A stretch of DNA of 6,960 nucleotides from Gammaproteobacteria bacterium (lineage in GTDB: Bacteria > Pseudomonadota > Gammaproteobacteria > Steroidobacterales > Steroidobacteraceae). Every line of letters starts with the position of its first letter. Position 1 is the stretch's first letter. The stretch covers positions 1-6,960 of the forward strand of contig JADLDF010000378.1 in assembly GCA_020846815.1 (NCBI GenBank), in the 5' to 3' direction. This document shows, piece after piece, positions 6,668 to 6,960 of this stretch. The notes beneath the pieces are model-generated. The model was not told where the DNA came from, made no database searches, and saw nothing but the letters and a program-made list of their open reading frames with translations. A program made the position numbers and the translations under genes.

Positions 6668-6960
6668 GCCAGGCTCCGGGTCTGCGGCAGCGTGCTCTCG
6701 AGCACCGCGCGCAGCGCCTCGAGCGTATCGGCCTCGGCCGCGGGTTTGTCGTCGCGCCAGCGGCGGATCCGCGGGAAGCGCAGCGCGATGCCGGACTTGT
6801 GGCGCGGCGAGGCGGCGATGCCTTCGTAGGCGCGCGCGCGCGTCACCAGGGTCTGCGAGACGCCGACGCGCAGCGCGCCGGTCAGCAGCTTGTTGACCAG
6901 GAAGCTCTCGCGATAGGGCAGGCCGCGCCACCAGCCCGTGACCGCGGCGCGCTGCGACGC
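6664..6960 (-). pseudogene. ATP-dependent DNA ligase of the ligase-associated operon, 5' end outside the window, adenylation domain deleted in frame
   Basis: Ninety-eight residues are visible, running off the right edge. Residues 20-41 (F LVNKLLTGALRVGVSQTLV) match the end of the N-terminal DNA-binding domain of bacterial ATP-dependent ligases, where a NKLITGxFRVGVSQ-type motif is typical. The next residues, AYEGIAASPRHKSGIA (44-59) and RFPRIRRWRDDKPAAEADTL (61-80), match the very end of the same protein, after the OB-fold. In intact relatives these blocks are separated by several hundred residues holding the adenylation domain (KxDG lysine) and most of the OB-fold. The join falls in an alternating CG run (6830-6842). 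As written, the product could bind DNA but could not form the ligase-AMP intermediate. Alternatives are an assembly collapse, or the missing part lying elsewhere. Its stop overlaps the helicase start. Confidence 0.78.

Follow-up and report, generated by a model that had tools for sequence, protein, structure and literature searches.

The 6,960-bp stretch of DNA analysed here (called the window) raises the question of whether a DNA ligase gene has lost its catalytic domain by an in-frame join and what the remaining stub might do beside its neighbouring helicase. The GC content of the window is 73%. Its minus strand is occupied between 6960 and 3370 by the terminal part of a ligase gene, a ligase-associated DEXH helicase of the Lhr type and a PdeM phosphoesterase; the ligase gene leaves the window at 6960, and its N-terminus lies outside. 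The plus strand encodes MsrB, a protein with a CsgG domain, an SRAP protein and an ORF of 372 codons without family match. The order ligase-helicase-PdeM, together with a helicase above its profile cut-off, is that of the ligase-associated DNA damage response operon, for which profiles exist of the LigB-type ligase (TIGR04120), the DEXH helicase (TIGR04121), the exonuclease (TIGR04122) and PdeM (TIGR04123). The window differs from the known operon in that the catalytic cores of ligase and PdeM have been lost in frame; the position of the exonuclease is outside the window. The closest relative found, the metagenome-assembled genome Steroidobacteraceae bacterium Prado182 (L001, helicase 86.7% identical), served as reference for the features listed here.

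6664..6960, minus strand: 3' end of the gene for the ligase remnant (98 codons and the TGA stop), 5' end outside the window
6829..6842, minus strand: deletion junction, 322 codons absent relative to L001, with an alternating GC run at 6830-6842
6664..6667, minus strand: GTGA overlap of the candidate helicase start codon GTG (6667-6665) and the ligase stop TGA (6666-6664)
3842..6667, minus strand: ligase-associated Lhr-type DEXH helicase, scoring 1017 bits (cut-off 850)
4574..4777, minus strand: insertion in the helicase linker, 204 bp, in frame, relative to L001
3370..3849, minus strand: PdeM remnant, 159 aa, matching TIGR04123 positions 124-205 of 207 with 57 bits
3754..3783, minus strand: estimated position of the junction left by the PdeM deletion, with ...TTLQL on one side and PLDVSW... 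on the other, placed by eye against the PdeM sequences P0002 and P0003

The ligase junction and its reality

Read on the minus strand from 6960 to 6664, the ligase remnant translates as ...LLTGALRVGVSQTLVTRA-R-AYEGIAASPRHKSGIALRFPRI... without a stop until the TGA at 6666-6664, and the join itself reads VTRA-R-AYEG. The profiles NF006701 and TIGR04120 each match it in two stretches, the better of which covers the profile end only (positions 483-526 of 526 for TIGR04120). In L001 the gene order is that of the window, with one additional ORF between PdeM and the 372-codon ORF, and the ligase is intact at the same place. Window 6829-6956 matches L001 5693-5820 at 96%, window 6663-6838 matches L001 6777-6952 at 84%, and the 966 bp of the L001 ligase that are absent from the window amount to 322 codons, comprising the adenylation domain and nearly the whole OB fold. 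The original prediction of an in-frame join deleting the adenylation domain is thus borne out by the L001 flank matches and the stop-free frame, and its estimate of about 330 residues (about 1 kb) was close. Coordinates were taken from pairwise matches to L001; a whole-window alignment contained an edge gap of 980 and scattered gaps in PdeM, which we discarded as alignment artefacts.

The hexamer CTCGCC, read in the same phase as Leu-Ala each time, occurs at both L001 breakpoints (5815 and 6781), which are separated by 966 bp. Slippage or microhomology between these in-phase Leu-Ala codon pairs, in a relative of Prado182, would have removed the 322 codons; a CTCGCC join in L001 predicts VTRA-L-AYEG, whereas the window has Arg instead of Leu. 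The same type of event had been proposed from the window alone, with a 13-bp alternating GC stretch as the junction. This run is present at 6830-6842 and is the longest of the window, but a run of such length arose in 75 of 200 shuffles and is unremarkable for 73% GC, and the likely microhomology is the CTCGCC in L001 rather than the GC run. The exact junction pattern had no match in viral_contigs.

The location of the join in the longest alternating GC run would also suit an assembly artefact or chimera, in which an intact ligase had collapsed at a GC-rich site. Both the 6-bp L001 repeat and the 13-bp run are probably shorter than usual assembler word sizes, and the stub recurs on a separate contig. 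The joined form served as query for a protein search that excluded full-length ligases by length and is therefore silent on intact alleles. This search gave 728 matches among 5,581 candidates; the best 120 of the 728 were examined and yielded P0008, a protein of 225 aa that is 95% identical over the whole joined query and whose last 98 residues equal the window translation. P0008 stands for a cluster of nine members known from this representative alone, and its longest contig has 1,427 bp. A contig of this length must be distinct from the 6,960-bp window, which makes an assembly collapse unlikely. The gutted PdeM, too, was found outside the window, in a Logan contig of 1,237 bp (P0001) whose PdeM stub is one substitution away from that of the window. 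The operon has undergone three large changes, of 966, 300 and 204 bp, each a multiple of three that preserves the frame. We consider an artefact very improbable and the deletion very probably genuine.

The products of the reduced operon

Since P0008 is complete, it was examined in place of the truncated window gene. Pfam recognized PF04675 only (residues 2-169, E 7.5e-15); neither PF01068, which is present in the L001 ligase, nor PF04679 matched P0008, and its sequence contains no KxDG motif. P0008 scored 182.6 bits against a cut-off of 400 for TIGR04120 and 226.4 against 543 for NF006701, below both, compared with 627.6 and 707.6 bits for the L001 ligase. Judged as a functional LigB-type ATP-dependent DNA ligase, it thus fails on the profiles, on PF01068/KxDG and on PF04679, and passes on PF04675. 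The predicted loss of the adenylation domain was correct but understated, because nearly all of the OB fold has gone with it. The lysine of KxDG is the residue that becomes adenylated in ligase chemistry, and a stub lacking it would be incapable of self-adenylation; from its sequence, the gene has ceased to code for a ligase.

Structure predictions are in line with a DNA-binding domain followed by a loose tail. In an AlphaFold model of the stub based on 26 sequences, block means were 88-97 over residues 1-90, 90-97 over residues 111-160 and 43-61 from residue 171; Foldseek returned six matches for this model with E < 0.001, all of them archaeal ligases (TMq 0.57-0.60). At the sequence level, the stub matched seven solved ligases in its C-terminal segment 169-214 only, which corresponds to their ends and represents the final piece of the OB fold, all that is left of it. 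Together with the Pfam result, these data lead us to describe the stub as this domain plus tail.

The PdeM gene has undergone a comparable loss: a net 300 bp are absent relative to L001, again in frame. With 57.3 bits the remnant failed the TIGR04123 cut-off of 150, which P0002 (170.2) and P0003 (196) exceeded. By eye, the segments DxH, GD and GNHD, which we take to be the metallophosphoesterase motifs, are found in P0002, P0003 and the L001 ORF and are missing from the window and P0001; a GHxH segment is still present in the window PdeM, and its C-terminal tail differs. The other five of the six Logan PdeM matches are 213-251 aa long and 40-61% identical, and hence none was found that is both intact and close to that of the window. 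Next to PdeM, the window has nearly no room (3350-3370) where L001 has 10163-11560, so that either the window lost more sequence here or L001 gained some. Within this L001 region, a 288-aa ORF (10173-11039) between PdeM and the next gene looks by eye like an XRE-type regulator. The L001 version of the operon has intact genes and, upstream of the ligase, an ORF that by eye is exonuclease-like.

The helicase, in contrast to the two remnants, appears complete: tested from the ATG at 6595, it reached 1017.1 bits with TIGR04121 (cut-off 850, passed). The anticipated arrangement of an in-frame DNA-binding domain beside a helicase holds. Its 204-bp insertion lies between the WH_Lhr and DEAD_assoc domains. 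The linker contains 60-bp tandem repeats (4564-4623 and 4624-4683) with the core TTTCGGACAGGNTTGATGGCT, which occurs twice in the window and in none of 207 loci searched; possibly these repeats are an in-frame repeat element of the window's genome. The PdeM ATG sits shortly ahead of the helicase stop. The visible operon is reduced to a helicase and two remnants, and the cluster seems to retain the helicase and not the joining chemistry.

Related loci and other ligases without an adenylation domain

To place these losses, 93 helicase loci (80 + 13) were surveyed by tblastn, a count that includes one locus twice (as L001 and L185) and some others that look near-identical. A ligase was present at 51 of these loci, 48 times full-length and colinear and three times truncated where the stretch ends. 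PdeM was present at 75 (74 full, one cut); within the stretches covered, 42 of 93 loci had no ligase and 18 no PdeM. Internal losses were seen in none of the 48 complete ligases and none of the 74 complete PdeMs at these loci. Among 396 genomes of the order of L001, 24 contained the N-terminal part of the ligase. Both ligase ends were on one contig in 21 of the 24, and the gap between them was 918-981 nt in all 21, i.e. intact spacing; in the remaining genomes the C-terminal part was on another contig (G053) or unmatched (G029, G773). One of the intactly spaced genes (G664) has a TGA inside the ligase stretch between the ends. A helicase over the cut-off was present in 13 genomes of the order, all 13 with the ligase N-terminal part. 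As a separate observation, six large genomes of the same order (G902, G903, G905, G908, G944 and G804) have an intactly spaced ligase and no helicase over the cut-off.

Alignment to the full-length ligases of relatives had been proposed as a check on the join, and a naturally short spacing in close relatives as the finding that would speak against it; no such spacing was found at these loci or in these genomes, and we rejected it as an explanation. That the short ligase is ancestral and the relatives gained the adenylation domain is a notion for which we found nothing in favour and to which we give practically no credence, with a full-length gene in L001, in 21 of 21 order genomes and at 48 of 51 loci from many phyla (the other three cut).

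Ligases of the same family that have dispensed with the adenylation domain nevertheless exist in other bacteria, where this non-catalytic architecture recurs. We collected 13 of them (P0055, P0061, P0071, P0076, P0082, P0109, P0028, P0035, P0038, P0128, P0145, P0171 and P0194) that contain PF04675 and PF04679 and lack PF01068 (Pfam run on three); for two of them the source names Thermoanaerobaculia. Ten adenylation-less proteins, including P0010, were among the best 120 of the 728 joined-form matches and 12 among 120 matches of a search with a profile built from nine of these proteins, with eight common to both lists and 13 in total without P0010; as both lists are selected, a frequency cannot be derived from them. 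In a FastTree phylogeny of 43 sequences and 285 columns the 13 form four groups among 28 intact ligases, P0109 joining the P0055 group with weak support (0.70), and the four groups may reflect either repeated loss of the domain or gene conversion among paralogues.

Invariant columns were defined as those with the same residue in at least 27 of the 28 intact ligases. Of these columns, 41 of 73 in the N-terminal part and 39 of 65 in the C-terminal part are kept in all those of the 13 with a residue at the position. In P0129 numbering, R424 is kept in 1 of 13, Y453 and F509 in 2 of 13 each and D525 in 6 of 13, and of the columns flanking the gap, M179 is kept in 1 of 7 and P408 in 4 of 9. On this pattern, the 13 look like a maintained protein freed from catalytic constraint. 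The model of P0061 has pLDDT < 50 beyond residue 200 and was set aside as poor.

The window stub shares with the 13 the presence of PF04675 and the lack of PF01068. The 13, however, still possess PF04679, the OB domain, and are both older and diversified, whereas the stub lost its OB fold as well in a separate event, which places P0008 outside the group. Two other family members have in-frame internal losses like that of the window with different breakpoints, located in the adenylation domain: P0010 (379 aa, 68% identical to the joined query) retains WWKWK and the OB domain, and P0031 (348 aa) retains the beginning of the adenylation domain with KWDG and has no OB domain.

Genome searches for the gene context of adenylation-less ligases recognized none in 396 genomes of the G061 phylum (76 matched, many by the C-terminal part only and therefore not all assessable), none in 193 genomes of the G404 class (50 matched) and none in 396 genomes of the G388 phylum, apparently the same set as that of G061, where 12 genomes matched at 1e-30 and the ligase ends were > 540 nt apart in all 12. 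In contig C384 of G493, a gap of 493 nt separates the N- and C-terminal parts of a ligase, and the two parts are not in the same frame.

Relic or adaptor

Our preferred account, held with moderate confidence, is a real chromosomal deletion of the ligase core in an operon that also lost the PdeM core and kept the helicase, the ligase stub probably being a relic. Both cores were removed in frame, any ligation would have to come from another ligase, and the operon keeps its helicase. The GTGA overlap of ligase stop and helicase GTG suggests that the frame of the stub may be held by coupling alone, helicase translation being coupled to the ligase stop. PdeM is the last gene, and coupling does not explain its kept frame, which would arise by chance in one case out of three.

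The stub may bind DNA and be coupled to the helicase, as originally envisaged, and in the functional version of this reading the DNA-binding domain would be an adaptor placing or clamping the Lhr helicase on damaged DNA. We regard such a non-catalytic ligase as a tentative alternative and favour the relic over it. In keeping with an adaptor, the N-terminal domain is predicted to be well folded and to resemble ligases with a DNA-binding domain, P0008 represents a cluster of nine sequences, and the 13 adenylation-less ligases retain many invariant columns; unlike them, the stub has lost its OB fold too, and the loss of PdeM speaks for erosion of the operon.

Evolutionary rates bear on both readings. 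Between the window and L001, dN/dS was 0.235 for the 43 ligase codons before the join and 0.284 for the 55 after it, compared with 0.253 for the helicase and 0.402 for PdeM (0.307 and 0.276 for its two pieces). The low values around the join would suit an adaptor, but most of the divergence time behind them may predate the deletion. Decaying remnants should outpace L001. Unique changes in the ligase N-terminal part were distributed 6:4, 5:5 and 5:2 between window and L001 with three outgroups, and those in the PdeM remnant 12:14 and 12:17, which shows no consistent acceleration and speaks against decay. Compared with P0009, the ligase part of the window had 11 unique changes against 5 with P0011 as outgroup, which counts against an adaptor, and 7:7 in a second comparison with P0009. 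Taken as sequence evidence, remnants without consistent acceleration fit a recent deletion as well as continued use.

An analogy for use without catalysis comes from yeast DNA ligase IV (Dnl4), which, according to PMC3694833, keeps a role in joining when catalytically dead and still supports imprecise joining, i.e. acts in repair without adenylation as considered for the stub. The Dnl4 mutants carry engineered point mutations in an NHEJ ligase from a eukaryote, whereas the window presents a natural domain loss. In the literature search results, we recognized no description of a bacterial ligase without adenylation domain, and the Figure 6 legend of PMC10140301 describes the LigB set as catalytic domain with N-terminal domain.

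That LigB-type ligases repeatedly become non-catalytic DNA-binding subunits of an Lhr-helicase repair system, here and in the older adenylation-less lineages, appears doubtful to us at present. The 13 suggest that the DNA-binding part of the ligase may have a separate use. PMC10140301 gives the role of this widespread operon, and hence the kind of damage it repairs, as unknown. Nature has in effect run an experiment on which of its parts is important, in a lineage that has the helicase and lacks the chemistry of ligation and of PdeM.
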